Of a stretch of DNA of 64,000 nucleotides, positions 40,020 through 63,718 are shown piece after piece. The position numbers were made by a program, and so were the translations under genes. Each line of letters opens with the position of its first letter. The stretch's first letter is position 1. The notes beneath the pieces were generated by a model. It had not been told where the DNA came from. It was given only the letters and a program-made list of their open reading frames with translations, and made no database searches. This stretch comes from Polyporus tsugae (Eukaryota > Basidiomycota > Agaricomycetes > Polyporales > Polyporaceae). Location: the NCBI GenBank assembly GCA_024305745.1, contig JAHRBS010000004.1:4588001-4652000 (forward strand), read 5' to 3'.

Positions 40020-40086
40020 TAGGTTCGGAGCAAGCCCCTTGCTCCGGCGCTCGCGCACCTTCGTAGAAGGGGCTTGCTTCAAAGTC
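40020..40086 (+). repeat. Left terminal inverted repeat with internal hairpin
   Basis: Begins TAGGTTCGGAGCAAGCCCC and ends GGCTTGCTTCAAAGTCC. Its reverse complement matches 63627-63709 over both ends. The repeat folds on itself: GCAAGCCCCTT near 40030 pairs with AAGGGGCTTGC near 40068. Confidence 0.8.
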
Positions 40087-40313
40087 CGAGCGCTCACGCC
40101 AACTTCGACTCTGTGTGAGTCCTTTTGCTTCAACACAATTCCCTTACAGTTGGCTTGATAATATGTTGCTTACATGTCAAGGAACTCATGGCACTTTTTT
40201 TGGATTATTTGCTTCAATTTTTCCGCATATATCTCCCTCCCGTCTGCCGTCACAGATTTTGAGACTAGCATGCAACTCATGCCCTTATAGTCATCCATGG
40301 CAGTTCAAATTTT
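40087..40313. other. Left arm of the large transposon
   Basis: Non-coding, AT-richer than the flank. With 46714-46863 and 55046-55100 it originally formed the promoter side of the DUF6589 gene. Confidence 0.5.
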
Positions 40314-40318
40314 GTATA

Positions 40319-40851
40319 TGATGAACTCGAGGCTGTGAGGGCAAGGGTTCCGACTGTAAGTCAAACATAGAGAGATCTTCAGTCAGTGAGTGAACAACTA
40401 TATTGTAAGTTACCAAGTACCTGTAAGTCAAACACAGAGAGACTAAGGTAAAGTCAGTAACTACAAGTAAGAGAGAGGCATGTATAGTACTTACTCTTCA
40501 GTCAGTGAGTGAACGACTAAAGAGCAGGAGCAGAGAATGTAGTCCTTATATACTACAGTAGGGAGTGCATGAGTAAGCAATAAAGAAGTCACATGTATGC
40601 ATGAGTAAGACAATGAGTAAAGGATTGTGCAATATTGCACCATAGAGTGAGTAAGCATAGAACTACCTAGACTATTCTAGAGCAGTATGGATTGTCCAAG
40701 AAGATTCCAGACGTCTCCGGACCTCTACAACAATAGTATGAGAGAGAAACCTAAATACGGTAAGTAAGATGCATAGCATTGACTAAGCGCCATGTGGTCG
40801 CATAGCCTCATGTCCGGATAAGTCCGTACCCTAATAGCTCAAAGTCCAACA
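40319..40851 (-). repeat. Copia 3' LTR
   Basis: In plus orientation it starts TGATGAACTCGAGG and ends CAAAGTCCAACA. The TATA-like segment reads TATATAAGGAC on the minus strand (about 40543-40553). The adjoining internal sequence, read on the minus strand, ends in GAGTGGGAG, a short polypurine tract. Confidence 0.93.
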
Positions 40852-40878
40852 CTCCCACTCAATCCATGCAGCAATGAA

Positions 40879-43800
40879 TCAAGCACCAAGGCCAACACCA
40901 TCACAGAACTTCTCGATGATCGAAAACGGGACGTTCTTTGTGAGGGCATCAGCAAGTTCGTCTGCCGAAGCGACGTAAAAGATGTCAACTTGACCCGCTG
41001 CGTAGAACTCGCGGATGAAGTGATACCAAACTTCCACATGCTTGGTTCGACATTCCACAACTGGATTGACAGCGAGGAAGATCATGCCTCGATTGTTGAC
41101 AAAGAGAGGAGTGGGGAAGTCCATCTCATATCCAAGTTCAGTGGAGAAAGTCCTGAGCCATGCCATCTGACGACAAGTGTCGGAGGCCGCTTTGTACCCC
41201 GCTTTAGTCGAGGAAAGCGAAATAGCAGGCTGACACCTTGAGACCCAAGAAATGGCAGCACTGGCCATCAAGAAGAGCATGCCCGAAGTGGAATGCCGAT
41301 TGTCCTTGTCTTCAGCCCAGTCTGAGTCTGAGTAAGCAACCAGACCATCATTGGAAGCGCCTTTGTAACAGATCTTGAAAGACTTGGTCCCTTGCAAGTA
41401 GCGCAGGATGTAACAGGCGTAGTTCCAGTGGTCAGGTGATGGATTGGAAAGGTAGCGTGAAAGATGAGTCACGGCGAAGGAAATGTCCGGTCGTGTTCCA
41501 AGCATGGCGTACATGAGACTGCCAATGAGGCTCTGATAACGCTTCCGGTTGGCATCGGATGCAACTCCATCATAGCTGATGAGAACTGCTCCAGCAGGAA
41601 GGGGAGTATGCGACGGATTACAGTCAGCCATATGGAACCGCTCGAGAACAGACTAGATGTACTCTTCCTGGTCAATGTCAATGATGCGAAGAGTGCGATC
41701 ACGATGAATGCGAAGACCAAGGAAGCGCTGTACTGGACCTAAGTCCGTCATCTTGTACTGTCTGCTGAGGGTCCGTTTGACGGTCTTGATGTGATTCCTG
41801 TCGTCGCCGAATATAAGTAGATCGTCGACATAAAGAACCACAATGGTGACTGAGTTCCCCCTCTGTCGCTGATATACATATACACCAGCATCGGAGTACG
41901 TCTGTGTAAAGCCCAGGTCGAGAAGGGATTGGTGGATCTTCATGTTCCATTGACGTGACGCCTGCTTAAGATCATAGATAGCCTTCTTAAGTAGACAGAC
42001 ATAATCCTCCTTTCCAGGAACAGCCCAACCTTCAGGTTGTTCCATGTAGATCTCTTCCTCAAGATCACCATTCAGAAACACGGTTTTGATGTCCATGGCT
42101 TCCATCTCCCAGTCCTCAAGCGAAGCGTGTGCTGTAAGGTACCGGATAGATTCATACCGCGCGACAGGAGAGAATGTTTTGTTATAGTTCTCCCCCCATA
42201 TCTGGGTGAAACCGCGTGCAACCAAACGAGCCTTAAGACGACCGTCGTGCTTTTTGTCGTAGACCCAACAACAAGAGACAACAGGTTTGTCTTTAGGGCG
42301 AGGAACCAGAATCCAGGTCTTGTTCTCCATAAGGGAGTCGTACTCTGCCTTCTCTGCAGCACGCCACTGATCTGACTTGGGCAAGCGCAAGGCATCGTAA
42401 TGATTACGAGGAACACCTGGTTTGTACTGTGCAGCATTCAAAAAGAGGTTAATGAATGCCACTTCCGCTTCATCTGGATCAGCAGGTAGAGGATCGTCAA
42501 GGGGAAGGGAAGGCTCGACATTTCCATCAGGACGAGTACATGCATTGACCTGAGAGGGACGGTCAAAGCCTTCAGCCTCAGCGTTATCCTTCTTCCAATG
42601 ATCATTCCGACCAGCCCCCTCTCACTGCGAATGTCGGGGAGGTACTCCCACTGGAGGGTGACGAGAGTGTGAGTGACAAGGAGCTTGAGGAACGACAGGT
42701 GGTGGATCCTGCTGTTCAGCGGGTTCTGGTTCTGGTTGCTTGTTTGGTGCGACCTCAGGTTCAGGTTGAACGGGAGGTTGTGCGGGACCAACATCAGGAT
42801 GGATGTCGGCTGGCAGTGGTATCTCGAGTTCAGGGACTCGATCATCACCATCTGAGGAAGAGTCTGAATCAGACGAACTGGAGTCATCCGAATGATGACC
42901 TGGGAACGGACTATCCCCTGGGGTAACAGGGCAATTGCCGGGTTCCTTACGTGCAGGAAAGACACTCTCATTGAAGATCACATCGCGAGATACAACGAAG
43001 GAGTGCTGCGCTGGGTTCCAGAAAACATACCCCTTGGTACCAGCAGCGTAACCAACAAATGTCATCTCGAGTGCCTTCTTCTCAAGTTTATGACGATGGG
43101 CCTTTTGCACATGAACAAAGGCTTTACAGCCAAACACCCTAAAGTACGAGATGTCTGGGGCTTTGCCACTCCAGAGCTCAATGGGTGTACACCACTTGTG
43201 GCAACACATTGGTTGACGATTGTACAGATGGACAGCACAGGCAACAGCGAGTTCCCAGAAACCGTGACTAAGGCCAGCTTGGTGAAGCATTGCCATTGCC
43301 TTGTCTGTGATGGTACAGTTCCAGCGTTCAGCACGTCCATTCTGTTGTGGCGAGTCAGGTGTCGACTTATGATGCTCGATCCTGTGTGTCTTCAGAAGCT
43401 CAGTGTATTCCTTCGACGTGTATTCCGTTCCTCGATCAGAGTGAACCCTCTTGATCTTGTGACCAGTCTGATTCTCAGCCCAAGCCTTGAACTCCAAGAA
43501 CAATTTGTGGGCTTCGTTCTTGTGCTTAAGGTAGTATGTGACACCAAGACCAGAGTAGTCATCAATGAAAAAGACAAAGTAGAGGTTCTTGCCATTGACT
43601 GATTGAGTGCGCATTGGTCCATCCTCATTGGTGTGGACGAGTTCAAGAGGACGAGTAGCGCGCTTCTGAGATGGAGGAAACGGAAGACAATGGGATTTGC
43701 CCCACGCACAACCTACACAGGCTTCAGCGTTGATGGGCTTGGGATCGATAGTTGGAGCACCTTTGGTTTTAGTTGGCAACTTCTTCATTGCTTCCTCACT

Positions 43801-45654
43801 CGGATGTCCAAGTCGACGGTGCCAAGTCTGGTAGTCCGTGACTGCAGGATGGACAGAGGAGTCTAGCACAAGTTCCGCCTTGATCTCGAGGACCATGTTA
43901 TAGACATTCAAGCAAGTGACGTACTCAGCTTCAAGTATATTGGTTCCAAGAGTAATCGTCGAGTCCGATTGTGGCGGGCTCACTAACCGCCATGTATAAA
44001 TACACATTCGCTTGGCACTCTGGACAAGAGTATGGCCTTTTCGCTCAACAGAACCTGTGGCGAATAGCCTGCACCCGACCTGAGGAACGTAGATGACGTT
44101 GTTCAACTCAGTCTCAATCCACCGATCATCAACATAAACACGACCTCGAACCGTCCCAGCACCTAAGCCATGGATTTGAGTGCCATTGGCCGTGGTTGAG
44201 AAGAGCATGGGAGTATCGAAAGGTTTGTAGATCAAGAAGTCGTTCATGTTGAATGTAATGTGCTCCGATGCACCTGAATTCATCAGCCAAGTTGTCGAGT
44301 TGTATCCCTCAAGGGCCGAAGCCGCAACATAGTGGGACACAATGATCGATTGCGAAGACTCAGCAGCGGATGTAGTTACAAGTACAGAAGCGACATTGTC
44401 CGTGGTATTAGCGTTATGAGCGTGCGAGGTGCCTTTGCCTTTGTCCTTTTTGCCATTGTTATTCCCCCCATTCTTCGGTTTCTTGTCGGGATACTTCTTC
44501 CAACAAGAAGACTCATCGTGCGTCTTACCGCCACAGTGACCACAAGGGCCTTTCTTCTTGGGCTTGGTAGTAGACACGTGAGAGGCTGAAGAACCAATGG
44601 AGCCAGTCTTCCGCACACTTTCCTCAGAGACAGTCTTGTTGATGACCGTTTCAACCTTCAAGTCTTTCAACTTGATGGACGAGAGGAGGCCAGAGATGAG
44701 GGTGCGGTAAGACTCAGGGATCTTGGAGAGAACAAGGAGGGCCTTCATGTTCTCCTCCAACTTGAGTCCGCCGTCAGCAATGTCCTTCAGGCGAGCCTCA
44801 AGGCGACTGAGCTGATCCTTGAGTGGCTTCTGATCCGAGAGACGTTCCATTCCAATGACTGCCTCAAACTTGCTCCAGGTGTCTGCAGCATCAGTCTTGC
44901 CGAGCTGGGACTTGAGGGTGGCCCACATCTCATGAGGCTTCTTGGGGTTGTCTGCATCATTGAAGAGATGATGATGGAGGTCCTTGTCAGTGCGCATGAC
45001 GATCGCACCGGTAGCCTTGTTCACGAGGTCAGCACACCTTTGAGCAGCTGTTGCATCTGCGGGTGTGGTTCCTGGATCAAACTTGACAACGTCCCAGGCA
45101 CCAACCATGATGAGGAAACCCTTTATCTGGGCAGACCAGTTAGGATACTGAGCGGAGGTTGCAAGGAGGGGAATGGAGTCGGCTTTGACGTTATCTCCCA
45201 TGGTGATAGTAAGGAGGAAGAAGTCATTGTCGTCAGAGGTAAAGGATGGAGTTTCGAGAGGAGGGAGTTCTACGCTAAGTTGCGCAGGCGAGGACAAAGG
45301 AGAGTATGCAAGGAAAGTGGTTTCTTCACCAGTTGGAGCGGGAAGAGGAGGAAGATCCGACAGAGACCTTGGAGAGGATTCTTGGAGAGCTGAAACGGGT
45401 TCCCAAGCAGTTTCAAAATCTATGCTAGGTAGCTCTCCACGGAAGTCGTAATGCGAGGGGCAGGGTGTAGTAGCACAGGGATACCAACCAGGATCATTTG
45501 ATTCCTCGTCGTAGTGGTAGTCCTGCCGCTCATCGAGGTCAAAGACGTGAGGAAAGTTGACACAATCAGGACCTGATGACGTTGAATTGGAGTCTTTATC
45601 AACAAGGTTCTCGACCTCTGATCCCGAAGAGTGGTCTGTCGGAGTCGGATCCAA
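40879..45654 (-). pseudogene. Copia gag-pol polyprotein with two stops and altered protease site
   Basis: One frame from 45654 to 40879. Order: gag (WSAQIKGFLIMVGAWDVV); zinc knuckle CGHCGGKTHDESSCW (about 44500-44555); protease WLMNSGASEH; GAG_pre-integrase WHRRLGHPS; integrase HSDRGTEYTSKEYTELL and TPDSPQQNGRAER; reverse transcriptase with ARLVARGFTQ and YVDDLLIFGDD; RNase H ending SLSSTKAGYKA and the VADALTK-like ELADALTKNV. The breaks are a TGA at 42622-42624 (between integrase and RT) and a TAG at 41653-41655 (between RT and RNase H). The protease active-site DSGA is NSGA (codon 44278-44280), which should abolish processing. It is therefore non-autonomous despite its young LTRs. Confidence 0.93.
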
Positions 45655-46163
45655 AACAGCCTAGAGATTTGAAGTGCGATGTAGGAAGGGAGAGCTCTGT
45701 GCACAAGAGCGACATAGATGGGAACACCTATTGAGGAGTGCCAAACTACAAGGAAGTTGGAGTTCCCTGCAGCCCAGATAGAAGTCGCCAACTATGCCCG
45801 TGAAGTCTAGATAGTGTATGTAAAAAGGCTATAGTAAGGAGGGTCTGAACGGTTGTCCTCCGGTCCTAACAACACTAATTGTCGCTAGTACAAGAGCTGG
45901 CGGGCGCAAGTGCGTGGCCTGGCTCAGGGATGCCTAAAACCCGTGTGCCTCAAAAGCACAATAGGTGGTACAGAGGGATATACAACTACTAGATAAAAGC
46001 GCTCAGGGGCACGGTGTGTGCAAAGTCACCCTGGCAGCAGTGTCGGTGGGCACAGTCAAGAGCTAGAGGAAAGTGGGGGATGAGTGCACAGAGTGAGAGC
46101 AGTGGAAGTCGACAAAAGAGTTGCGCATGCGAGGAGAGAGTCGACGAGTGACAAGGTCAGAGT
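45655..46163. other. Copia 5' leader
   Basis: Untranslated region between primer-binding site and gag start, internal to the element. No other feature seen. Confidence 0.6.
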
Positions 46164-46178
46164 GCAGGGCTCATAACC
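46164..46178 (-). promoter_or_regulatory. Copia primer-binding site, half-tRNA type
   Basis: The plus strand reads GCAGGGCTCATAACC directly next to the 5' LTR. This matches the anticodon arm of initiator tRNA-Met (anticodon CAT), so the element RNA can pair with an internal tRNA site. Drosophila copia is known to use such a half-tRNA primer. Confidence 0.7.
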
Positions 46179-46708
46179 TGATGAACTCGAGGCTGTGAGG
46201 GCAAGGGTTCCGACTGTAAGCCAAACACAGAGAGATCTTCAGTCAGTGAGTGAACAACTATATTGTAAGTTACCAAGTACCTGTAAGTCAAACACAGAGA
46301 GACTAAGGTAAAGTCAGTAACTACAAGTAAGAGAGAGGCATGTATAGTACTTACTCTTCAGTCAGTGAGTGAACGACTAAAGAGCAGGAGCAGAGAATGT
46401 AGTCCTTATATACTACAGTAGGGAGTGCATGAGTAAGCAATAAAGAAGTCACATGTATGCATGAGTAAGACAATGAGTAAAGGATTGTGCAATATTGCAC
46501 CATAGAGTGAGTAAGCATAGAACTACCTAGACTATTCTAGAGCAGTATGGATTGTTCAAGAAGATTCCAGACGTCTCCGGACCTCTACAACAATAGTATG
46601 AGAGAGAAACCTAAATGTAAGTAAGATGCATAGCATTGACTAAGCGCCATGTGGTTGCATAGCCTCATGTCCGGATAAGTCCGTACCCTAATAGCTCAAA
46701 GTCCAACA
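46179..46708 (-). repeat. Copia 5' LTR
   Basis: 530 bp, near-identical to 40319-40851. It is the 5' LTR because gag-pol reads leftwards from it. Confidence 0.93.
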
Positions 46709-46866
46709 GTATACATAGTCTGTATGATGTTAAAACTGTGCGTATAACTTCCGGGTCCGGAATATGAACTGTATAGATTTATACTGAGAGTGTCCTTGCC
46801 CTTGGTGTCCGTGTGACTTGGAGTGACACACCGTGACCTACGCGTCACATCGCGTGTCATACACCC

Positions 46867-46889
46867 CACTGCGTGAAGCACCAGATTAC
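46867..46889 (+). repeat. CACTG element left TIR
   Basis: CACTGCGTGAAGC(A)CCAG..., inverted match to 55020-55042. Confidence 0.75.
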
Positions 46890-47666
46890 GGTGAAAGGGA
46901 ATCCAACAGGAATTTCTGGATTCCGGGCAGATTCCCTACAGATCCCGTCCCAGATTCCCCCGAGACAGGAATCTGTGAGGTACCTTCACATTACCGGCAG
47001 GTTCCTGTGAAATTCCCTATAGCTTGGGCAACATGTTTGGCTGGGGCAAAACTAAGTAACACTTATCTGAAAAATTACTTGTCCGGAATGCAATAACCGC
47101 GGGCGTCTCGACCCAATATATGTCGTGGCAGCTCCCATTTTGTGTGCGTTGCAACTTGACTTCCTTCTTTTATCACCTTCTGCACGCAGATCGCCTCGGC
47201 CTCATCTACCCTGCAGGTATGCCTTCGCGGTAATTCCTATAATGGGTACTTGATATGCTATCAGGCAGCTTGTTCTACCAGCTCGGCCATGCGGATGCCA
47301 ATGGCTTGACGCCTCGAATCATTGCGGTACGTTTGTGCCACCCATCCGAGTTAACATTCACCAGCTGACATACTGTCGCACCTACTATATCCTGGAGGCG
47401 CATACATTGCTGTAGGTGAGTTGCACAAGCATTCAGCACATCTGTATTAGTCAAGAGACCAATGACTCGGATTAGGTTCAAGTCAATGCCAGATGTATGT
47501 GCATATAGGTATGTGCAATTAGTATTTGACCTCTCCGCTGTGCCTGACAATAACATAGGAACACGACGTGCTATTTATATATGCACATGTGCGATAACCA
47601 TGCATCATGCCTCGAGGGGGTTCGGGACAGGTAAGTAAGACAATTATTTTGCCGGTTCTGGTGTCC
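46890..47666. other. CACTG element, left internal part with subterminal repeats
   Basis: About 46895-47030 carries repeated GGAATC/GATTCC motifs able to form hairpins. The rest is non-coding; two short spliceable-looking pieces (near 47188-47216 and 47265-47330) might be captured gene fragments, but they are too short to identify. Confidence 0.5.
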
Positions 47667-48083
47667 TGTCACAGCCGAACGACTGTGCCACAAAACAAAC
47701 AAAAAGGGGGGGCTCACTGATGGAGACACAGAGGGTGGCAACAGAAGTAGAGGATAGATTGGCCTAGACTAGAAGGCAGAGGATGACAGGGGCTGTTAAG
47801 CTGCCTACAGATGATGGGGGAATGAACAAGAGACAGAATCTAAGGTCTCTGAGCCCACATCACAGCCCTTATATACTATACATGACAGGTGCACAGACCA
47901 CCTGGCTTCAGGGCAGGCTTGGATACTGATGGCAGGTGAGCCAGTCCAAATGGAGAACAAAGAGGTAAGTACTATTACATAATGATGACCAGTGTCCAGG
48001 CTAGAGTCTGGAAATGGGTAAACCTGGGGTTAGGGTTGGTGGCTGTGACTATGGTACCAAACGTGGCGCGAAAAAACGTGACA
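47667..48083 (-). repeat. Gypsy 3' LTR
   Basis: 417 bp, TGTCAC...GTGACA; followed rightwards by CTACCCCCTCCTC, the complement of the polypurine tract. Confidence 0.92.
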
Positions 48084-51000
48084 CTACCCCCTCCTCAAGG
48101 CTGAGCTCCAGCGAAGCGATCGTACCAAACTTGACGATTAAACTGAGCTTGTACCGGCCGTGGATTGGTGAGGGATATTGGTTGGACAGCGTCAGGGTGC
48201 GAGGTGTGGAATTCATCAAGTAGTTCTTTGCAGTGCTTGACATTCTGTACTGGTTCCCAGTGGCTTCGCTGATATCGTATCCAACCCATTTCACAAGGTA
48301 TCGGACATATCCGTAGTAGGTCTTAGAGTCGAGGATCTTTTCAACCTCAAACTTGTCATGTCCTTCCACCTCTATGGCTGGTGGTTTCGACGGGTTACGG
48401 TTGTCAATCTCATCCTTGTGGTAGGGGATGAGTTTGGAAGCATGGAAGACAGGGTGGACCTTGTTTGTGGCTGGAAGTTGTAGACGGAAGTCGACCGGCC
48501 CAACTTGGTTGACGATTTCGTAGGGCCCATAGTTCTTTGCGGATAACTTTGCTGATGACTGTTTGATCCTAAGGTCCCTTCCCTTGAGGAGGACTTTGTC
48601 CCCAACCTTGAATGGCACTTCACTCTTGTACTTGTCATAGTACCACTTCATCCGTTCTGTAGCAAGGGTTAGGGATGCTTGGGCCTGTTCCTGGGCCTCC
48701 GTTCAGTACTGGAAGATGTCTTCGAGGGTCGGGAAACCTAGTTCTCCCTGTACATCTGGGGCCATCTTGGGGTGGTATCTGTATTCCACAAAGAAGGGTG
48801 ATAAGCCGGTAGACTCGTGTGCAGCATTGTTGTAGGAAAACTCCGCAGTGGATAGAAGGGAGGCCCAATTGTCTGGGTGGTGTTCAGTGAAGATCCGTAG
48901 GTACTGTTCCAATAACTGGTTGACTCGTTCCATCTGACCATCAGTTTGGGGGTGATAGGCTATTGACATAGAGGCTCGGATGCCCAGCTTCCCACAAAAC
49001 TCCTTGAAGAGCGCACTGGCAAACTGTGTTCCTCAATCTGAAATGATCTGTTGGGGTAGGCCATGATGTTTGAGTATGTGTTCGTAGACAAGCTCTGCCG
49101 CATCTGAGGCTGAGAAGTGGTCATCACATGCAAAGAAGTGGGCTCGCTTGGTCAACCGGTCTACCACCACTGCAATGGCCGTGTAAACATTGCCGTGTCT
49201 GTCACAGGACTCAGGAAGTTGAGTGATGAGGTTGATGCTCCAGATCTCCCATGGCCCAGCTGGGACTTCATTTGGCTGCAGTAGTCCGAAGGGAGGGTTG
49301 CGTGAGGCTTTGTTACATTGGCATGTATCGCACCCCTTGACATACTTCTTGACATCGACTGATATTCCAGGCCACCAGTAGTTGCAGCTGATAAGTTCCT
49401 GGGTCTTCCATCGGCCAGGGTGCCCAGCGAGTGTGGTGTCATGGTGGAGTTTGAGCAGCTCCAGTCGTAGTTCCTGGTCCTTTGGGACATAGACCTTTCC
49501 CCGATAGAGCAGGAGACCGTTCTCGAAGTTCCATTCTTGCAGTGGTTTTCCAAACTCCCAAGGGCCGCTATTGAGCAGTGCCTTGTAATCCTTGGTCATT
49601 GTGTCATCTTCGAGTGCCTTCTTGATCTTGTCCAGTAGTTGCTTGTCGTCAACTTCAGAGGTGTGGGTGGTTTGCATGGCTTTGATGGCAAAAAACTCCA
49701 GCTTCAGCAGTGTTCGACCATCATTGTCGCTGCTTACCCCCTCCTCATGATCTGGCCTCCTGGACAGAGGGTTGGCACAAAGCATTGTCTTGCCGGGTTG
49801 GTGTCGTAGGTTGAAGTTGAAACAGGAAAGGAATAAACTCCAGCGAGCTTGGCGACAAGTGAGCTTCTGGGCCTGCCGGAAGTAGGTGAGGTTAAGGTGA
49901 TCCGACCAGATCTCAACCGGCTCAGGGTGTCCCTCCAGGTAGTGGCAATATTCCTCCAAAGCGCGTATGATGGCCAGTAACTCCTTGTCATAGATCTCAT
50001 AGTTGCATTCATGCTCATTCAAGGACTTGGAGTAAAACACTACTGGGTGCCATAGTTTATCTTCACCCAACTGTTCCAGTACTGCCCCTGTGGTGAAGTC
50101 AGATGAGTCTGTTTCCAGGCGGAAAGGTGCAGTGTCATTGGGGATTTGCAGGATCGGAGCAGTGGTGAAGGCGGGCTTGAGGCTCTGGAAGGTGTTTTCT
50201 TGATCTTCTCCCCACTGCCAAGGTGCGTCCTTGCAGGTGAGAACTGTGAGTGGGCGAGCTATCTTTGAGAAGTCCTTGATAAAACGTCGGTAGAAGTTGG
50301 CAAGGCTGAGGAATGCCTGTACATGCTTGACTTTGGTAGGTGTTGGCCAGTTCTTTACACCTTCAACCTTGGCTGGGTCTATTGTGATGGAGTCCTTCGA
50401 GATGATCAGCCCAAGGAATTCAACCGACTGTTGTTCAAACTTGCACTTCTCAGGCTTAATGAAGAGATCATTTGCCCGTAGTTTCTGGAGCACTCATTCT
50501 GTGAGTTGCCGGTGGAGTATGAGGTCATCTGTGAAGATAAGGATATCGTCGATGTAAACTACCACATGTCCCGTAGCAATCTCCTCCTTGAGGATCTCAT
50601 TCATCATAGCCTGGAAGGTGCTTGGGGCATTGCAAAGACCAAAAGTCATCACCGTTGGCTCGTACAGACCATGGTGAGTGATAAACGCTGCCTTCTCTTC
50701 ATCTCCTTCCCGTATACGAACATTATTGTACCCCCACCTCAGGTCCAGCGAGGTGAAGATTGATGACTGAGATAAACGGTCGATAAGGTCTGGGATCCGT
50801 GGTATAGGGAACTTGTCCTTCTTGGTGACAGCATTGAGGGCATGGTAGTCCTGTACCAGTCGCAGGCTGCCATCCTTTTTCTTGACAAAGAATACAGGAG
50901 CGGCAGCCGGGCTCTTTGACCTTCGGATATATCCCTTAGCTTCCTGTTCATCGATCCATCCATCGAGGGAGTTCCGTTCTTGGGGGTTGAGTGGGTAAAG

Positions 51001-51594
51001 CTTTGCTGGCTTTGGCAGTGTTGCTCCTTCCACAAACTCGATGGGGTGGTCATAGGGCTTGCGAGTTGGCATCCGCTCTGAAGCTGTCTTGGAAAACACA
51101 TCACCGTACTAATGATAGTGGGTGGGCACATGATTAGACCAGTAGTCCTTGTCTTAGCTTCCTGGCACTGGTGTTCCTTCCTTCTTCTCCTCAATCCGTG
51201 TTTGCAGAGCACGGGCATCAGGGTCATCAGAAAACTGCATCCAATGTACAAACTGTTCGGCACTGTCCCAGGGCTCGCGGTCTAGCTGACCGTAGGTGTC
51301 TCATGCAAACTCCTCTAGTCGGGGCTCCTCCACCATCCGGATTTCTTCGTCCTGTACCGAAACCAGGCTGGATAGACAGGTGTGCAGGCAGCATGTAAAC
51401 TTTACTTGACCTGTCTTCCAATCGACTTCTGGGTTGTGTTCCCGGAGGAAAGTCATGCCAATAATGATATCCCAGTTTCCTATATCTGTGACCAGAAAGG
51501 ACTGCCAACTAGTGTGGTTGTCGATTGTGACAAGACACTGGACATAGTGCATGATCAGACCCTTCTTGTTCTCTGTTGCATCAGCATTGAACAC
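48049..51594 (-). pseudogene. Gypsy pol with several stops
   Basis: Minus-strand order: aspartic protease-like region (FLVTDIGNWDIIIGMTFLRE, 51301-51594); RT (SPAAAPVFFVKKKDGSLRLV, FTSLDLRWGYNN, VVYIDDILIF); RNase H (FRLETDSSDFTTGAVLEQ); integrase zinc finger (H..H..C..C, GCDTCQCNK) and core; chromodomain (FEVEKILDSKTYYG to VKWVGYD, about 48260-48370). In-frame stops lie at about 51301 (TGA), 51160 (TAA), 51110 (TAG) and 50494 (TGA). Further breaks lie at about 49030 and 48700, and a frame change splits the end of the chromodomain (continuing HWEPVQNVKHCKELLDEF in another frame). It is clearly dead. Confidence 0.9.
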
Positions 51595-51860
51595 TCATAT
51601 CTCTCATGAGAGGCGTCGTAATTCCAGGCCATGTTCCTGAACAAAACGATAGTGTGCAAAACTCAAATGGGCTCCACAATCTAGGAGCCCTTCTGACTGG
51701 ATTTCACATATTCCTTGCCTGAGGGTGAGTTTTAAATCAAGTGACTGTCGCTGTCTGCGTGATGAAGCGAGATATACATAGTTTGATTTAGGTACAAATG
51801 ATTCCTCTAGGTGGTTTACGTTACTAGTACATATGGATCAGATGTTACAGCCAGTCCCTG

Positions 51861-53108
51861 TTACATCCGCTGGAGAAAATCCTGTTTGTTGGTCTCAATG
51901 ATCCGTGCAGTGGTTTCCTGATGCTCTTGCTTGCTCCTGAGTTCAAACTCCTTGAGTGCATTGACAACAAACTCCATTCGGTCCTGGTCTTTGGTCTTGG
52001 CTTCTTCCTCGACGGCCCATATCTTGGTTGGTGCAACACCCTTGCCTTTGAAGTTGGGAAGCTCATAGTACCCCTTGTATACCAGGTTGCGACACTTGGT
52101 GCCAGACTTGTAAGGGTGTTTGCTGCACCGGAAGCACATCTTCTTGGCTAGCCAGTCCTCTTGTTCCTTGGAGAGCTTCTCTGGCTTGCGCATTGCATTG
52201 ATGTTCATGGTGTCGGGGTCTCTGGCAGCTCTTGAAGAGGAGGCAGCCTTGTGGTACTTGTTTTCCCGGTAGTTCATCTCAATCTCGAGCACCCAGTCAA
52301 GGAAGCTCTCCCACTTTGTCGGGATAGTAAATGGTGACAAGGAGTGGTGGGTGATCATAGTGGTACGGAGATCACCCTTGCACTGGGCATCAATGCAGTG
52401 AATGAGCTCCACATCAGAGTAACCAGACTTGATGGCAAAACAGCGGAAGTTCTCTGCAAACGAGGCAAGGGACGAGTGGGACTTGACACACAGTTCCTCC
52501 AGAGATTGCTGAGCAGACTTTTCTGGTGCCAGTTCTCGGTATCCGCTCTTGAGCCAGTCGACGAAACTGGTCCAGGTGCCAAGGTAGGTGTTGTCGGTGG
52601 CCTTTTGGGCATAGTCATCCATGTACGACTGGGCTCCTCCTTCTAAGAACAACAAAGCGGTGGTGATTTTGTTGTCGTCTGCTGTGATGTTCTGGTACTG
52701 GAACCAAATGCCGAGTTTCTGGAACCACTGCTCCACCGTAAGATCCGGGGTCTTGCCTTTAAACTTGGGAGGGTCCGCGATTCTAGGCCGGTGGGTGTTG
52801 TGCAATGGGGCCGTTACCGGGGCCGTGCGGGTAGGTGCTATGGTCAGGTGAGAAATGAGTGAAGCAACTTGCGTTTACAGTTCCTTGATCGCCTCAACGA
52901 GCATCATAGTGTTGGTGTTGAGAACATCCACCTGTATTTTGAGGACTTCCCTTTCAGCCTTGAGTGTGTCATTCTCTGTCTCCAAGTTGTAACAGCAGGT
53001 TTCCAGGTCATCCAGGTTCCTACAAAGTGTTGCATGGGTGACAAACTTTTCTTGTTGGGTTCGGAGATCATGGATGTCGACAACAGTTGGGTTTCGGTGT
53101 TCGTACAT
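51861..53108 (-). pseudogene. Gypsy gag (capsid and zinc knuckle)
   Basis: One frame from 53108 with a coiled-coil-like start (LETENDTLKAEREVLKIQ), a TAA at 52875-52877, then the retrotransposon gag core (PKFKGKTPDLTVEQWFQKLG, and GGAQSYMDDYAQKATD). A zinc-knuckle-like CFRCSKHPYKSGTKC (about 52085-52135) follows. It ends at 51861. The TAA could derive from CAA in KEL(Q)TQVASL. Confidence 0.8.
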
Positions 53109-53116
53109 TTTGTTTC

Positions 53117-54194
53117 CTAGCTGGTTGTAGAATCCTTCCTAACCATGTCGTTGGTTACTGCTAGCAACCAATTGATGTATGAGGCGTGGATTTCGAAGTG
53201 TGTACCAGATACTCGGATTGCCTCTTCGAGTGTGTTGTACTCTATGCCTTGAAAGGACCAGGTCGTGGGTTCCCGCATTGGTTCAAGGGTCGGTGTTAGT
53301 GATGGCGGGTGTGTGGGGTGTTGAGATGCTGGCCGGGGGGTCGTTTCTGTTTCTGGTGGGTTTCCTCCACCGGGTGGGGTGCGTGGTTCATTGGGCCCAA
53401 AGGCATCCGTTGGGAGAACTTCAAAGCGAGACATGATGTATTTCCAAACTCCAGGGGTTGTTGTACCAAAGGGGAGACTACAGGATGATCCAGTCTAAGT
53501 ACCCAAACTTGTCTAGCTCAACAATTGTGTTCGCTATTCTAGGGAAACATTGTCCTAAACCCAAAAACTTTATCTTTCCAAACTCCTTGCAGAACTAGTT
53601 GATGCTCTGTTGTTGACTGTGGGTCCAGTTGGGTCCGCTGTGGTTGATATTGTTGCTGATCCACTCCAGTTGGTCGCCGACACGTTGGATGGCTAGACGA
53701 TGGTCGTGCGGAAGGTCATCGAGTAGCACCTTGCGGTCAAAGACAGCTTGAAGGTGCTTGAGGACGGCGTGGGCCTTGGTCTCAATGATAGCGAGGTTGT
53801 TGTTGACGTTGGTGTGGGTGAAAGCTGGGAGTGGTGCAGCAGAGATGCGGCACGCAAGGGGGATAGGTAGTGGTAGGACAGGGGTTGGTAGCGTGGGTGT
53901 GGGTGTCTGGATGCGGGGTGTATTGGGCAAAGGTCGGGCGTAGGGGACAGATTGAGGCAGAGCATTGCGACAAGGGACCAAAGGTGCATGCTCCCGAAGG
54001 CGGTAGTGAAGGCGATCCTCAGCAGAGTCCACAAGTACACAGGATATCTGGTCCTGGACTGGGAGATGACCGTGCCTCTTGAAGTGGCGACAGGTAAACT
54101 CCTGGAGGTCTTGCTCCTTAGAGGGAATGGGGGATGATAAACATGCATAAAACTCCTGGGGGGAAGAGAGATGGCTGGCTAGTGACTTGGGCAC
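53117..54194 (-). other. Gypsy 5' open frames of unknown role
   Basis: Two minus-strand frames, 53595-54194 (199 codons) and 53117-53434 (105 codons, Pro/Thr-rich), sit between the self-priming site and gag. They lie in different frames from gag and from each other. They may be the N-terminal gag extension broken by frameshifts, or leader ORFs. Confidence 0.4.
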
Positions 54195-54215
54195 TGAACC
54201 AGGGGCCTAGGTGTG

Positions 54216-54226
54216 AGATTCTGTCT
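54216..54226 (-). promoter_or_regulatory. Gypsy putative self-priming site
   Basis: On the minus strand AGACAGAATCT lies two bases inside the 5' LTR, where a primer-binding site belongs. It is perfectly complementary over 11 nt to AGATTCTGTCT at the predicted RNA 5' end. No TGG start of a tRNA-type site is present. Tf1-like elements prime in this way. Confidence 0.65.
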
Positions 54227-54228
54227 AA

Positions 54229-54647
54229 TGTCACAGCCAAATGACTGTGCCACAAAACAAACAAAAAGGGGGGGCTCACTGATGGAGACACACAGAGGGT
54301 GGCAACAGAAGTAGAGGATAGATTGGCCTAGACTAGAAGGCAGAGGATGACAGGGGCTGTTAAGCTGCCTACAGATGATGGGGGAATGAACAAGAGACAG
54401 AATCTAAGGTCTCTGAGCCCACATCACAGCCCTTATATACTATACATGACAGGTGCACAGACCACCTGGCTTCAGGGCAGGCTTGGATACTGATGGCAGG
54501 TGAGCCAGTCCAAATGGAGAACAAAGAGGTAAGTACTATTACATAATAATGACCAGTGTTCAGGCTAGAGTCCGGAAATGGGTGAACCTGGGGTTAGGGT
54601 TGGTGGCTGTGACTGTGGTACCAAACGTGGCGCGACAAACTGTGACA
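54229..54647 (-). repeat. Gypsy 5' LTR
   Basis: 419 bp partner of 47667-48083; gag-pol reads leftwards from it. Confidence 0.92.
54395..54439 (-). promoter_or_regulatory. Gypsy LTR promoter: TATA box and probable RNA 5' end
   Basis: On the minus strand TATATAAGG (54431-54439) is followed about 30 nt downstream by AGATTCTGTCT (54395-54405), where transcription would be expected to start. Confidence 0.55.
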
Positions 54648-55019
54648 CGTCTCGTGAGCTCGCAGTGTAGCATGTAATCTTGTACCACGCAATATATTTC
54701 TATATACGCCTGTTCACATTACTCGAGAGTGTTGCCCAGAGAGACGAGCTGAACGTGTGCCAAATTTATGGGGAGGATAATCGAGCAGGGGGTAGGCAGC
54801 TATGGCGATATATTGACATTTCGAATAACCAATATGACATATCTGGGGCCCACAGATTACAAGGCACGCAGAACCTCTTGGGTATCTCGGTGGGAATCTG
54901 CCCGGAATGTACAGGGAATGTAGTCATTAACTTTAGATTCCCTGAATGCAGGGAATCTGGCTGGGATTTGCAAGGAACTCATTGGGAATCTCTGGATCCC
55001 GCACTGATTCCCAAAACTT
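54648..55019. other. CACTG element, right internal part with subterminal repeats
   Basis: About 54890-55015 repeats GGGAATCTG-like motifs in both directions, mirroring the left subterminal region. Confidence 0.6.
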
Positions 55020-55042
55020 GTAATCTGGCGCTTCACGCAGTG
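55020..55042 (-). repeat. CACTG element right TIR
   Basis: Reverse complement of 46867-46889 with one substitution. Confidence 0.75.
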
Positions 55043-55100
55043 CCCCTTTCGTACTCCCACCACCGCGCATGGTTCCACAAGAGCTACTCATTTGTCCATC

Positions 55101-58100
55101 ATGTATCCAGTGACCCCTAATATCACTGTTATCTTTGCTTCCATGTCTGAGTCCCCTCAGGAGCTAGAAACCCTCTAGTACAGCTCGGACTTCTGGGAGG
55201 AAGTCTTTGCTGGTCAAGAGACTTCCAAAGACACCACAGGCAAACTCCACCTCGTGTTCTCCTTACTGGTCTATCTAGCTTTGCCTTTGCACCATTTGCT
55301 TGTGTTCGCTTTCTCTAGCCACATCAAGGCAGTCCAGACCCAGGCGAACAGGTTCTTTGACTATTGCACGCATGCCGGCGACTTGAGCACCGAGCCTCCC
55401 GGGTGCATCTTCTGGCCAGAGAAGGTCTATCGTCTGTGGCACGAGAACTAGGTGAATGCACAAGGCCATCTCCACGAGCTCATTGTACAGCCTTGCACTG
55501 AGGAGGTTGCTGTAGAGGAGAGCGACGAGCTGATCAAGGAGCCCAGTTTCCGAATCAAGAGAAGTAGTCTTACAATGGCAAGTATCCGTTGCCTCATGAG
55601 TCCCGCCACAATCCTTTCGGTCATCAAGGAGAAGGCATCATTTATATACTGCTTGCTTCACGCGTTTACAACGGCACCCAACGAGTATCGGAAGAAGAAG
55701 AGCAGGCGCACAGGCGAGAGCATGGTGCAGGCTGCAGGGGAGAGAGCCGAGGAAGATATCAGCTCAGAGGCAGGCGGCATGGATGAGGAGGGAGATGATG
55801 GTGATCCAGAGGCTGCCAATGAAGCACTGGGGAACAACAAATGGGAAGACTTGTACCCTGGCTTTGCACGGAACCCCACATCTGTGAGTCAAGACTAGAT
55901 GAGATGTATTCATGTGTGAACTTCTAATGCGACACAACGTGACAGGTGATTATGGTTGCAATATGTATGTGCTTGTTCGTTCGGAACCGTGCCACCAACG
56001 TCCTCGCTCTCCCTCTCGGCTTGTTCCTCAAGATCTCTGGAATGAGCAAACGTGTTCTCATGCTGCTCAGCAACATCAGGCTCTCAGTTTTGAGTACAAC
56101 AGTCGAGCGAGTGAAGGAACACATCTCCAAGGACGCGGTCCGACTCGCGGTCTCTCTGATCACCGGTGCGACACTGTTCTCCATCATTTTCGACAACATC
56201 AATCTCTATCTGCGCAAGTTTCAGGAGCGCATTTCTAACCATCACTCGATGATTCATATAATGAATGCTGCTGTCATCGCCATCTCGGAGGGGGACACGG
56301 CGAAGGTCGAGGACATCTCATCGAAGCTCGAGCGGTGGGGTAAGCGAGTACAGGTGGAGTGGGATGACATTCGCCCCACTCAAGAGGACACCGAGTGTAT
56401 GGGTCGCTCCTTTGAGTGTCTCATCGCCGAGATGCTGGTGAGGTACACCCCTGGTAACGGGACATGGACAGGTCGCGCCAAGGTGCTGGAGAAAATACGG
56501 GCAGATATGCCAAAGGATCGACCGCTTCCTTCTGAGAAGACTGATGCACGGCTGCTAGGAGTACTCAACGTGAATGAAGGGTTGAAGAAGGGGCTCATTC
56601 TCGAAGGGCTGCAGCAGAAGTCGACTTTTGACCAGACAGCGTGGGCTTCGAAGATGCGGATCATGCAAGGCGACTGGCTTACATCAAACAATTTCTGTGC
56701 TGCTCGTCGTGAGTGCAAGGATGACATCACCGCTTTCCACTGGCTTGAATATGTCGAGGAGCTTAGTGCTCTGTGGCACTTCGGGCTAAACGCTATGCAC
56801 ATGATTGTCTGGACTCACTTTGGAGTCGCAGTCACCAATCCAACATCATTGGCCGCACACAAGGGTCTCCTTCATCACACGTGGGATGCAAAGAAGCTGA
56901 ACTATGCTGCTGCAAAGTTGCTTGTCTGCCACTCGTTGATTGCTCGGCTTCTGCGCTGTGTGATGTATGTGGTGATCAGTTTGCGATGCTCTTCGGTGTT
57001 GCGTCTGAGTATTGATAGAACTTTGCTGCGTGCAGGGTGTTCAAGAAGTTTGCCTCTTGGGGCGACCTGTCGAAGTGGAGGCCTACCTACAATGAGATCC
57101 ATGAGCTCGCAAAGCGGATTGAAAAGGAGTTTACCCAGAGCACTAGTGCCCGGACTGCGAGTCATGCGGGGGACGACTGGCAGGCACACGAAGTATACTT
57201 CATTCGAGATGTCCTGTTGTTCTTGGTCTTTGAGCATGGGGTCAGTACTGCTGATGCAGGCATTGTTCTGCGTATCCTCAAGTATTGGGCCCTCAGCTTT
57301 CAAGGTGCAAGCCAGCATAACTATGCCCGGGAGTGCGTGGAGATCCTGGTCTGTTGGAAGTACGAACTCAGCAATGAGCTTCATGCAGCACTTGAACGAG
57401 CGTGGTTTGTCAATCGCTGGGGCGAGCCGGGCCGCTGGATTGTGGCCGACCTATATCTAGAACAGTGCAACTTCTGGGTGAAGGTGAGTGAACTCACGGA
57501 GCAGTGATTAGTATGCCCGGCCCGGCCAATGGTTGATATTGGTCTTGTAGTGTGTGTTCATTGCTTCCGGCAATGGAGTCACTATCAAGTACATCATGAA
57601 AAAGGGGTCAGCCTGTGTTGAGGCATTCCAGGACATGTCTCACCTGATGGCGAACCTTTTTGGTGACTCAGACCATCACCGACGCTCAAAAGAAGTGGTG
57701 TTCTATGAAGACATGAGTGTTCTTGTCGAGGATATGACTAAGCGAAAGTCACACATCCTTGCATCAAAGCAACACTTCGTACCGCAGATGAAGAAGACAA
57801 CAGGCGGAGGAGAGTGTTCCCCATCGTTGACTCAATGGTCCTCGGCGCAGAGATCTGGTGGAGCGGAAAATTCGATGAGTACATTCGTACTACCGCATGG
57901 GATTCAGAAGTTGGATATCGGATAAACCAGGAGAAGGATGGTCAACATGAGGTGCGATATGACACTGACACCACATTCGATGACTGCTATGCAAATGTCC
58001 TTGAGGCTGATAAATTTGTGGACTTGCACGGGGATGAAAATGCGGCGACAAGTGAGGAGGGGCTTACGAGTACCGGTGCACTTGGAGGAGGTGATGAGTT

Positions 58101-58125
58101 TGCAACAGGTATGGAAGCATTCTAG
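55101..58125 (+). pseudogene. DUF6589-family protein, putative transposase, disrupted
   Basis: Agaricomycete DUF6589 family. Exons 55101-55883, 55946-56964, 57036-57483 and 57551-58125 join in phase. The core reads VSLITGATLFSIIFDNINLY, GDWLTSNNFCAARRECKDD, and WGEPGRWIVADLYLEQCNFW, then MSVLVEDMTKRKSH. The spacing D (FDNIN), D (GDWLT) and E (DLYLEQCN) suggests a DDE-type RNase H-fold transposase; this is inference, not a known assignment. Damage: TAG at 55176-55178 and at 55449-55451 (both in the frame that starts at 55101), and a frameshift near 57800-57815. Downstream VDSMVLGAEIWWSGKFDEYI continues in another frame to 58125. It is convergent with the helicase gene. Confidence 0.85.
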
Positions 58126-61100
58126 CATACTTGTAACATATATAATCATACGGAGACATCAGAAGTATCATATGTACACCTATTGTTGGAATTGAGTCGC
58201 TGGTGGTGTGTGGAACTGTGCGACATATGTACTAGGCGCTAGATGGCCTCGATGCAAGCGCAACCTCGATGGCGTGGGTGCCTGAAGTGGCTGCATGGGT
58301 GGAGATACGGGGAGGCTCTGTAACGACTGACTATGGGATGGGGGATAGTAGCCTGGTGGATAGGATGGCGGCGACAATGCATGCAATGGATGGCTGTGTG
58401 ATACATGGGAAAATGAAGGCGGCCGTGCTGTTGGGGACAGAGCATACGCAGCCGCCAACTGGTAACCTTGCATAACAGGAGTAGCATATTCACGTGCTCC
58501 GGCCGGAGCGCGTGCTTGGGAAATGGGTGCATACGATGGTCCATGCGTGTAGGATGACCAATATTCTATGGCAGGGATGTATAATGATTGCGCATGTGCC
58601 GGAGACATGGTGTATGTTGACTGGGCCTCCGGTGGCGAGGTTTTGTGTGCTAGCTGGTTTGGGGGAATGGCAATGTACATTGACGATGGCTGGGTCGAGG
58701 ATGAAAATGTCGGGTATGCACGTTGGGAGACCATATTTGAAGACTGGGGGTTGGGAGGGGATACATACACAGGTTGCTGCTGGTACAAAGATGGCTGGCC
58801 TTGTGACGATGCTGTATATGATAACTGTGAAGTTTGCGGCATGGCTGCATACTATTTTTGGCCTTGCAACAATGCTACATATGATGGCTGGTGGTGGAGC
58901 GTCATTGGGAATGCAGACTGGCCAGGGGAAGCAGAGATGTATGACAACTGATGGTGCACCGGTGAGGTGTGGTATGAGGCTTGTCCTTGCGTCAAATATA
59001 CTGGCAAATTAATTGACAAGTGAGTGGCTAGGGCACGACAGTGATATACAAGGTATTTACCTTCTCCGGAATAGTGAGGAGTGATTGGGGCTGAAGCAGT
59101 CGGTGTTGCCTGACGGAAGACATTCGGAGACCGAGCGTCTGCATGGCGTGTGGGGGTAGACGGTGTTGTGATCCGTGCCTGATTGAGAGGTGCTCTGGGT
59201 GTAACATTATGCTCTTCTATTGAAACCCGGACAAGTTAGTATCAGTCCCAGACCGGCGAGAACAGTAGACATAAAGCTAACCAGACACGGGGTTTATCAT
59301 CGGGAACATCTCTTGTGTACCCGCCATTGTTTGTCGGCCGGGTGTTGTCTCAGGGTGGCCAAAGAGTGGTGCTGCAGCAATTGTTGCTGTCGGCGAAGAG
59401 GCCGGAGATGAGTGCACGTCTTCCCATGCCTTCTTCTGAGAACGGCGCTGCAACTTTGGTGTCGCTGTAACTGCTGCCTCAACGCGCCAATCTGTGAGGA
59501 TTTTTGTGACCACTCCCATTTCTTCTTCAGTGGCCGAGTCCCAGTGAATGATATGCCGAACATCACGAACTGCGATGGTGGCCTTCGATAGAAACAAAGA
59601 TGCATGGGAAACTAGTTTCTTAACTAGCAAGTCGGGAAAGTCCACCATGGGGTCGATGTATGTGTAGTCGCGCCCAGGTACAACGTGCTCCTCTCTCCAG
59701 GTAGTGAGTAGGGAGCGCAGCTGGTTGGTCTCTTCCTTGGAGATCGAATGGCTGCCCACCAGCGGTTCAAAAGCTGCAGTTGTTGAAGAAGAGCTAACAG
59801 AGAGTGTGGAGAGGGCTGTAGGAGGACGTGAAGGGGAATCGTCCAGCTGAGAAACCAATGGGACAATGAACCCATGGGTATAAGCAGAGAGACGTGCATC
59901 TCCTCGCTGCAAAAGCTCCAGTCGATCCGGGTGCCCAGAGTTGCAAACCCAGCAACAACGCGTCAGCTCAGGCTCACGCTGAAGATTGAGTGCAGTCCAG
60001 ATGAGCGCAAACAATGAATTTATTGACCGAGTCCCCATTTCCTGACACTGCGTGTTCAAAAGGTCCGTATATGTTATAAGTTGAGTGTGAGGGCGAAATG
60101 TTTCATGCAGAAAGCGATGCAAGCAACCTGGTACTCCACATTAGTAGTCAGGTATTCCTGGAACCCAAAACTGCGCTTACCAGGTCTATCCAAATGGCTC
60201 GCGATCCACTTCAAGTTAATAAACTCCTCAAGCGTCGTCGGCAGTTTGGCGTGCTGTTCGGTGTGACACTTTGGTTCAAGTTGTACCTTTTTCTTGCCCT
60301 TGAGTTGTCGAAGGGCTTGTGATGGAGCGGGGGTGTCTGGCGTGGTCGGACGGAAGGCCCATCGAGGCACGAGAAGGATGCAAACCGCTAGGGTTATGCG
60401 ATCACGGCCTGCTCGTCCCCACTGTTGTGCAACCACAGAGAAGGAACGGTGGGATCCAATGATCACGATGTAGCGAATGTCAGGAATGTTGCAGCCCATG
60501 CTGGCCGCATCAGTAGCACAGAGAATCCGACACTCTCCACTACTGAACTGCCCCCAGGAGTCTGTCTTGGCTTCTGTCGATAAGATTGAAAAGAACGCAC
60601 AGACGCACGAGCGGAGATGAGCAGGAAGGCACCTGCAGAAGGTCTCTGTCCCCTGCCGGCATGCATCCTCGGAATCCATGTAGATGATCGTCTTTGGGAT
60701 GGCGTCGGGAAGGGTGGAGGGCGTCATGGTGCGAGGGAGAAGGTTGAGCAAGTCCAGAATGGGGTTCTTTGTATTCTCAATGGCAACAACGTCGAAAAAG
60801 AGATTTGGACGATCAGTGCTGATGTCAAGCCCCCAGAAGGGACGGAAACCATATGCGAGGCTCGTCCATAGCTTCTCAAAGGTAACCGTCTGACAGGTCA
60901 CTGTGCAGCTAAAGAAAGGGACATCTTGGCCGGTGTAGTGACGGAGATAGCTCAGCAACTGGTAAAGAGGGCGGAAGTCATCGGTCCCCCGCTCCTCGAT
61001 ACAGTGCGCTTCGTCGACCACGAGCGCGACCAGGCATTTGCGAAAGGACGAGTCATGCCAGAGTTTTGCAAAGCCATCCGATTGGGACATCTCGGGGGAA

Positions 61101-61384
61101 AGGTAGATTATGTGAGCATGTGTGCGAACCTTCTCCCATACACGAGCCTCATGCGAGTTATCCTTGTTCACTGCTATCTCCATGATCCCTTTCGCGTTCG
61201 CCTGCGCCATCTGTGAATAGTCCAATGAGACTACAATTGTCAGAACAGAAGAAGGAACAAACACTAACCTGATTGTGCTCCAAAGCCTTAAGCGGACATA
61301 TCACCACCATGGCCTTCTTCTTTCCCCCAAGAACGGCCAGTCCCTCGAAGATAAGGCTCTTCCCATAGCCTGTCCCCGCTGTGA

Positions 61385-62834
61385 CACTCACGGGGAACCT
61401 GCATGCGTATGGGTGTGATGCACGGGGGAAGGACAGGCCATAAACCAAAGGGTGCGAGTGGGTCCGAGCGCGCTGCAGGACAAGGGTGAACGGGAAAACA
61501 GACAAACCCAACTCAAAGAGCCGGGGCGACGAGCCACAATCAGACTTCACTGGAGCTTGGTGGACCGAGTGACCAGCTTGCAGGCGGGACCGTCCGACGG
61601 GCGAGGATATGAGGGCGCGCGGATATCGCACTTTGTGTGCGATTCAGCGAGCGGAGACTTCTTTCGCGCGAGCTTCCGCGAGAGACGAACTGAGACGACA
61701 CAAGACGAGCGATGAAATCTGGGGAGACGTAACCTGGGGTCTGGAATTCAGGATCTACCTACTAAGTACACTGGGGAATCCTACACTATGACAACTGTAC
61801 ATACTCGCTCGGATCAGATGGCTACCTGGACCTGGATGTTACAACTGAGCGTCGAGCAAGGATCAGGGATACGTACAAGACGAGCAGGAGTGCCGATGAG
61901 CACTTGTGCAGCAAGAGCGGAGCAAGGCTCAATGGTCAGGGCTGGAGATAAGATGTATTGAGTAAGTAGTTGTCTACGAGTGAAATACAGCGAGGCTTAC
62001 CTGGAGACAAGAGGTCGAAACTGAGGTCTCCAGGCAGCGAAGTACAGGTCCTTATATATGTATAGAGGACAATGGGAACCCAGGGACAATAGGTAACTAT
62101 GGACATGGGTGAACAATGGAAACAGAACAATAGCGACAACAGACAATAAGGAGCTACTGTGCTAGAGAACAAAGGACGAGATACAATGCAACGGAGAACA
62201 ATAAGTACGACGTGAGAAGTAGATCATCCGGAAAAGGAAACTAAGGTGCTGGTGGCAGGCGCCGAATAGAACATTCATGACACTGGACCTGCATAGCCTG
62301 ATCACTTGCCCTGAGCACGCGGGACGACGACTTGTGAGCCAACCCAATGCGCGCCATGCGGACGTGCGACTGGTCTCGTGCAAGGAGTCTGGGGACTACC
62401 AGGTGGCTCACCACACGCCGGACCTATGGTCCGCACAGTGTGTGCATAGCCTCTCCAATAGTAGCTGACTTGATGGGCTGTACACTTGCGTGGACCTGAG
62501 CCTTTGCTGGATGGGGTCTGCGACGAGTGTCGGTAACACTTGGAGGAGTGACGTGTGAGTTGACTGCACGCATCTCGTCGGGACCGGTCCGCTCGCGGAA
62601 GGCAAGAGCCACGCTTAGTGGTGCGCGCGCCTCTTCGCGTGATGGGGATGCTACCGCTGAAACCCTGTCTGTGTCAGACTCACTGAAACGGGGATGTGAG
62701 TGTGCATATCGCGTAAGCCTTGCGTGAATCTTGCGTATGGTAGAGTCGGTGATCGCGAGGAGGACCCCTGGTGGGATGCACTCAGAACGGGCGGGGGCGC
62801 AAAGATACGGGGTCAGAACCTGTTCGGACCCTTA
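61385..62834. other. Expanded intron of the helicase gene
   Basis: Besides the solo LTR it holds about 1 kb of unexplained DNA (61385-61831 and 62288-62834), a likely second, older insertion. No frame, TIR or further LTR is recognised. Confidence 0.5.
61837..62282 (-). mobile_element. Solo LTR in the helicase gene
   Basis: Starts TGTTACAACTGAG and ends TTCATGACA, flanked by a perfect 5-bp duplication CTGGA (61832-61836 and 62283-62287). It is 446 bp, with a TATATAAGG on the minus strand near 62050-62058 as in the other minus-oriented LTRs here. No internal retroelement sequence remains, so it arose by LTR-LTR recombination. Its sequence is unlike the Copia and Gypsy LTRs of this window. Confidence 0.8.
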
Positions 62835-63155
62835 CACCACGCACAAGATGCTATTGAAGCCACGCAGCAACTTGGACAGGAGTTCGAGCTGCCAGGCATC
62901 AGGTTTGAATGGAAGCTTGAGCTTTCCTTTGAGGGTTTTGGCAAGCATGGCGGGTTGAAACTGTTTGTTGAACGGCTTTGTGCCCTGAAGGCTCTGCTGG
63001 AACTTCTGGTGGTGCGGGGTAGTGGGAGCACGGCTCGGGGAGGTGAGGACGAGAGAAGTGGATTGTGGCGGAGGTGTACTCGGGATATGGTTTGGCAAAC
63101 TGGTAGGAAGAGAAGACGAGTGAGGCGGAGGTGTCCTGGGAGGCGAGGTCTCCAT

Positions 63156-63626
63156 TATAGTCCAGCGGGGCACGCGAGAAGCAGAGCGGTGAAAGAAGCA
63201 GAGCGGGACGTGCGCCTGTGACACGGCACGTCGCACGTTGAACACAAATGTGACGCCTCTCTGACGGGCGCTTCCACCACTATTCCTACTGACCCCCATC
63301 TTGCGGGGCATATTCCTCAGCGCACAGACAATAGAGGGGGCTCAAAATTTGCACGGGAGAGGGTAACATGTCCTATGACGACTTACCACAGTCATATCAA
63401 CAATTCCAGGCTTCTCAGATATCTAACTGGATTTCCTCCCGGGGCCTTTCAATTGCTGCTTTTGTGCCCTTTTGCACACACTCTCGTGTTCTCGTTTTGT
63501 GGCGTATTGACACGAATCTTTTGTTATTATACACAGAAGGGTATGAACTATCAATCTAGCAAAACAGATGGGCTACGCGGGAGGGAGGGACATGGGGATG
63601 GGGCCACCTAGGTTGGCCCCGATTTC
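63156..63626. other. Right arm of the large transposon (helicase promoter side)
   Basis: Non-coding sequence between the helicase start codon and the right terminal repeat, comparable in length to the reconstructed left arm (about 430 bp). Confidence 0.5.
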
Positions 63627-63709
63627 CAGACTTTGAAGCAAGCCCCTTCTCCAAAGGCTCGTGTGGAGCACGAAAATTCGTTCGGAGAAGGCGGCTTGAT
63701 CCAAACCTA
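63627..63709 (-). repeat. Right terminal inverted repeat with internal hairpin
   Basis: Read from the outside it begins TAGGTTTGGATCAAGCCGCC and ends GGCTTGCTTCAAAGTCTGG. It also has a foldback core (AAGCAAGCCCCTTCTCC against GGAGAAGGCGGCTTGAT). The loop between the stems is longer than in the left copy. Confidence 0.8.
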
Positions 63710-63718
63710 GGACTTGGA
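63710..63718. repeat. Target-site duplication, right copy (9 bp)
   Basis: GGACTTGGA immediately outside the right terminus; identical to 40011-40019. Confidence 0.85.

Follow-up and report, generated by a model that had tools for sequence, protein, structure and literature searches.

A helicase-bearing DNA transposon of Polyporus tsugae, very likely of the AcademH type, with a DUF6589 protein as its predicted transposase

AcademH transposons are the closest described relatives of the element reported here. As published, AcademH elements make target-site duplications (TSDs) of 9 or 10 bp, those of AcademX being 3 or 4 bp (PMC10045372); AcademH is present at low copy number in Basidiomycota, among others, and was linked to helicase domains in a 2024 screen of fungi (PMC10799480). 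Here we describe an element at positions 40020..63709 of a 64,000-nucleotide stretch of Polyporus tsugae DNA (the window; contig JAHRBS010000004.1, C1:4588001-4652000 in our numbering of a 43.2-Mb genome in 18 contigs). It is very likely a decayed cut-and-paste transposon of the AcademH type, bounded by terminal inverted repeats (TIRs), with a DUF6589 protein as its DDE transposase.

The ends of the element and the 9-bp duplication are where the original prediction had placed them: TAGGTT begins at 40020, AACCTA closes at 63709 and an exact GGACTTGGA lies on both sides. The predicted inverted repeats were found at both ends. By eye, 15 of the 17 outermost bases agree, and a separate subterminal block forms a 29-bp inverted repeat with 93% identity, which makes for a short, interrupted terminal repeat. 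Pfam matches confirm the two convergent genes, with DUF6589 (PF20231; E = 6.3e-40 and 2.1e-28) on the + strand and DEAD and Helicase_C on the − strand, converging on the DUF6589 gene. The features of the element are as follows.

40011..40019: left TSD GGACTTGGA, 9 bp, from the letters as read and the copy-pairing script
40020..40086: left end, TAGGTTCGGAGCAAGCC..., with the inverted subterminal block AAGGGGCTTGCTTCAAAGTC
55164..58122, + strand: putative DUF6589 transposase gene, from Pfam matches, its fold and triad taken from relatives; approximate pieces 55164-55886, 55946-56971, 57037-57483, 57554-57805 and 57823-58122
59277..63341, − strand: RecQ-like superfamily 2 helicase gene; pieces within 62832-63341, ~61158-61390, 60074-61300 and 59277-60140
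63627..63709: right end, inverted TAGGTTTGGATCAAGCC..., carrying the same subterminal block as the left end
63710..63718: right TSD GGACTTGGA, 9 bp, an exact match to the left copy

Among curated models, the helicase is best matched by the RecQ family TIGR00614 (E = 1.3e-29, below the model cut-off), and among solved structures its closest relative is 1oyw, an ATP-dependent DNA helicase, followed by RecQ (E = 1.7e-17). Because the first piece of the DUF6589 gene contains at least one in-frame stop, we regard the window copy as decayed; it is probably inactive.

The original prediction had looked to further copies of the ends elsewhere in the genome, and these exist, with 17 matches to the left end and 12 to the right. 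A script that paired near-exact termini at both ends, no more than 26 kb apart (loci L001-L029; partnerless ends uncounted), gave 12 copies, of 69, 70, 72, 92, 111, 111, 953, 1461, 1468, 2014, 3630 and 23690 bp. Ten of them have an exact 9-bp TSD, the copy on C17 matches at 8 of 9 bases and the copy on C13 has none; one start on C9 with a second possible partner, without a TSD, was excluded from the 12 pairs. The copies on C17, C7 and C2 are mutually 95-98% alike at different sites, and a copy on C1 is 87-91% alike to them, which suggests recent movement. Short open frames only were seen in the short copies. The 3630-bp copy (L067, C9:480033-483662) has TAGGTT ends and an exact TSD.

The pairing of DUF6589 with a helicase recurs across the genome. 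A PF20231 search gave 17 exon matches grouped into nine places, and at eight of these a RecQ-like helicase match lies 1457-2591 bp downstream of DUF6589 in convergent orientation (at C2 and C5, from the Helicase_C search only); with 95 Helicase_C matches genome-wide, a chance neighbour is expected at about 0.02 per locus. For the reading frames at C2, C5 and C13, the RecQ family (TIGR00614) is the top match, with E = 2.6e-17, 3.3e-18 and 1.3e-19, respectively. Three DUF6589-helicase elements are complete, with other ends, CAGGCTCC, and an exact 9-bp TSD in each case.

L061, 1484-7541: complete CAGGCTCC-ended element
L063, 1280-7625: complete CAGGCTCC-ended element
L064, 2559-8904: complete CAGGCTCC-ended element

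As a control for the end search, random Markov sequences gave 2 hits in 90 at 13 or more of 16 positions. The L063 and L064 elements align gap-free along 6346 bp at 97.7% identity; the identity begins and ends exactly at the element ends, and the flanks and TSDs differ. Because these sister copies occupy two sites, they are direct evidence that DUF6589 and the helicase are mobile as one unit.

Inverted repeats of other kinds were seen at two DUF6589 loci. At L066 (1178..7575), a 25-bp inverted repeat with 92% identity, its arms 6.4 kb apart, brackets the DUF6589-helicase pair, which is perhaps an older element; no TSD was found there. Upstream of the DUF6589 gene of L068 lies an inverted repeat with touching arms (885..1320, about 436 bp; 81% identity over 438 columns).

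Following the pairing into other fungi, as the original prediction had suggested, we compared 119 named helicase relatives with 76 named DUF6589 relatives among the matches listed, the latter from what we take to be mushroom-forming fungi. For 25 of the 119 helicases, a DUF6589 relative occurs in the same species on a contig of equal size, which is a proxy for the same contig and not proof of it; about two such co-occurrences are expected from contig sizes if 40-Mb genomes are assumed. On contigs of 250 kb or less there are 11 co-occurrences, with 0.18 expected. One pair, in Trametes cinnabarina, has consecutive gene numbers (BN946_scf184970 g97 and g98). For P0270 and P0040, which count among the 25, the scaffold numbers in the example gene names disagree. 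The 94 helicases without a co-occurring DUF6589 may partly reflect that both sets of relatives were the best 120 matches only.

DUF6589 is very probably the transposase of these elements, given its DDE-like predicted fold and its strongly conserved D..D..E, which together support the role that had been proposed for it from the window. Two DUF6589 subfamilies, which share 15-19% identity, were modelled with AlphaFold; DDE transposases are the best structural matches of the models, and the nearest structures in Foldseek are those of hAT and P (superfamily lists drawn from the top 1000 chains). What we take to be the catalytic residue numbers of Hermes and P were set against the aligned ranges, a comparison by range and not residue by residue. 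Between the second D and the last E, the hAT, P, MuDR, Kolobok and Dada transposases carry a C/DxxH motif. In DUF6589 the histidine H477 is invariant (104 of 104). Three positions N-terminal to it, 98 of 105 rows have G or A, and neither C nor D is among the four commonest letters; the motif is absent. A sequence search of the PDB with the DUF6589 profile gave 0 matches.

The window element fits AcademH, as that group is described in print, in its separate helicase and its 9-bp TSD. The TSD is exact at 9 bp in 10 of the 12 TAGGTT copies and in all three complete CAGGCTCC elements; DEAD/Helicase_C or RecQ-like matches lie between the ends in all four bounded elements, that of the window included; DUF6589 has, on prediction, the fold and the conserved D, D and E of a DDD/E transposase; and nine DUF6589 loci in a basidiomycete agree with low copy number. 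No difference from AcademH was found, the comparison being by description only. The AcademH label of the original prediction agrees in TSD length and helicase with what is printed.

It is unlikely that these elements are instead a separate, unnamed superfamily in which hAT/P-like DUF6589 transposases gained a RecQ-like helicase independently of Academ and converged on a 9-bp TSD. Its appeal is that the predicted structure of DUF6589 is nearest to hAT and P, with which it shares an RNase H-like core, an insertion and the D..D..E order, and that the likeness to Academ is one of description. Against it, a helicase together with a 9-10-bp TSD in fungi is already AcademH in print, so a second lineage is not needed. 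From hAT (Hermes) and P themselves, DUF6589 elements differ in lacking C/DxxH, in making a 9-bp TSD (theirs is about 8 bp) and in possessing a helicase gene. Similarly doubtful is the idea that DUF6589 and its convergent helicase form a mushroom superfamily of their own, with the unwinding enzyme as an obligatory partner that sets the 9-bp stagger. A MULE/MuDR element with a captured helicase, for which a TSD of about 9 bp would likewise be possible, is very improbable: the scanned DUF6589 pieces gave no Pfam MULE match at E up to 1 (an absence that is not proof), C/DxxH is missing, and a helicase paired at 8 of 9 loci is no occasional capture. KolobokH, a Kolobok lineage that has a RecQ helicase and is described from fungi alone, can be set aside, because the Kolobok TSD is TTAA whereas the 9-bp TSDs here are varied in 10 of 12 copies, the helicase here lies on the opposite strand and converges on DUF6589 at 8 of 9 loci, and DUF6589 lacks C/DxxH.

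Several observations weigh against the assignment to AcademH with DUF6589 as transposase. The Foldseek E-values are weak (best 0.0035 and 0.012, none below 0.001). All helicase matches to RecQ models fall below the cut-offs of those models, the Helicase_C match at C2 is below the Pfam cut-off, and a search for a helicase at the C14 DUF6589 locus found none. The original prediction had expected DUF6589 genes to be accompanied generally by both a helicase and terminal repeats; the helicase part held at eight of nine loci, and TIRs with a TSD were found at just four of nine, the window and three others. A search of 10-kb stretches for TIRs and a TSD at the other five (C3:2134k, C13, C2, C5 and C14; that is, L062, L065, L066, L068 and L069) gave none that was convincing. 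The coding part of the window element (55050-61300) was found once in the genome at the DNA level, and because this interior is single-copy, the link between the TAGGTT ends and the two genes, DUF6589 and the helicase, comes from a single copy; L067, of 3630 bp, matches the window element in its end repeats alone, not in its interior. Finally, the insertion at 40020..63709 is read from one genome, in which no empty allele was seen; the sister copies L063 and L064, with unlike TSDs at two sites, serve in its place.

As to how an AcademH-type element of this kind might move, the DUF6589 protein would be a transposase built, like those of hAT and P elements, on an RNase H-like core plus a helical insertion. 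It would bind the element at its TAGGTT ends and at the subterminal AAGGGGCTTGCTTC blocks, excise it and join it to the two target strands at points 9 bases apart. The RecQ-like helicase, the product of the opposite strand, may open the ends or resolve the joined intermediate, and the gene-less copies of 69 to 3630 bp would be moved in trans.

The element probably belongs to a kind already described, probably since 2020. In the literature collection searched, no paper names DUF6589 or ties it to a transposase, and neither DUF6589 nor PF20231 occurs in the 8 of 43 matches listed from a further search; Kojima 2020, the paper on AcademH, itself lay outside that collection. Because Kojima 2020 may describe the same proteins under other names, our claim to novelty is modest, and the useful part is the DUF6589 assignment: a domain of unknown function in many mushroom proteins now has a likely job, as a transposase, and gene models with DUF6589 could now be annotated as belonging to transposons. 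The recent sister copies and the very short mobile ones also provide a system for asking what use a helicase is to those cut-and-paste transposons that have one.

The remaining length of the window element is made up of four later insertions, in agreement with the nested structure that had been proposed.

40319..46708, − strand: copia-type long terminal repeat (LTR) element, not part of the transposon; LTRs 98.7% identical, TSD GTATA
46867..55042: CACTG-ended element, TSD CCC, harbouring a gypsy-type element
47667..54648, − strand: gypsy-type LTR element; LTRs 97.1% identical
61837..62282: solo LTR within the helicase gene, TG..CA, TSD CTGGA (by eye)

Subtracting them leaves about 8.7 kb by the sum of coordinates, the interior size previously estimated. 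A TSD was looked for at the gypsy-type element and none was found. Nor did a search of 61300-62900 find a TIR-bounded insertion; the repeat there is the solo LTR, of which the genome holds at least about 40 near-full copies, that in the window included. The CACTG-ended element, which we take to be CACTA-like, measures about 1.2 kb once the inner gypsy-type element is subtracted, and its TSD is 3 bp long.

The flanks had been read as the coding frame of a major facilitator superfamily (MFS) gene. We could not confirm that identification: a Pfam scan of eight host-flank pieces gave no match, and a hand-spliced piece of 167 aa gave only a sub-threshold match to MgtE (E = 0.025).

RecQ-like helicases also occur in another setting in this genome. 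A helicase block with near-equal scores is present at C5:2120793, C7:4006907, C9:3280587, C11:2453628 and C1:4996648; four of the five are no more than about 55 kb from the end of a contig, and a copy of the 446-bp solo-LTR repeat is found about 0.4 kb away each time. This looks like a duplicated subtelomeric helicase. A second helicase frame, of 233 aa, is present near contig ends at C3:16289, C6:13258, C8:10035, C13:17126, C16:15334 and others.
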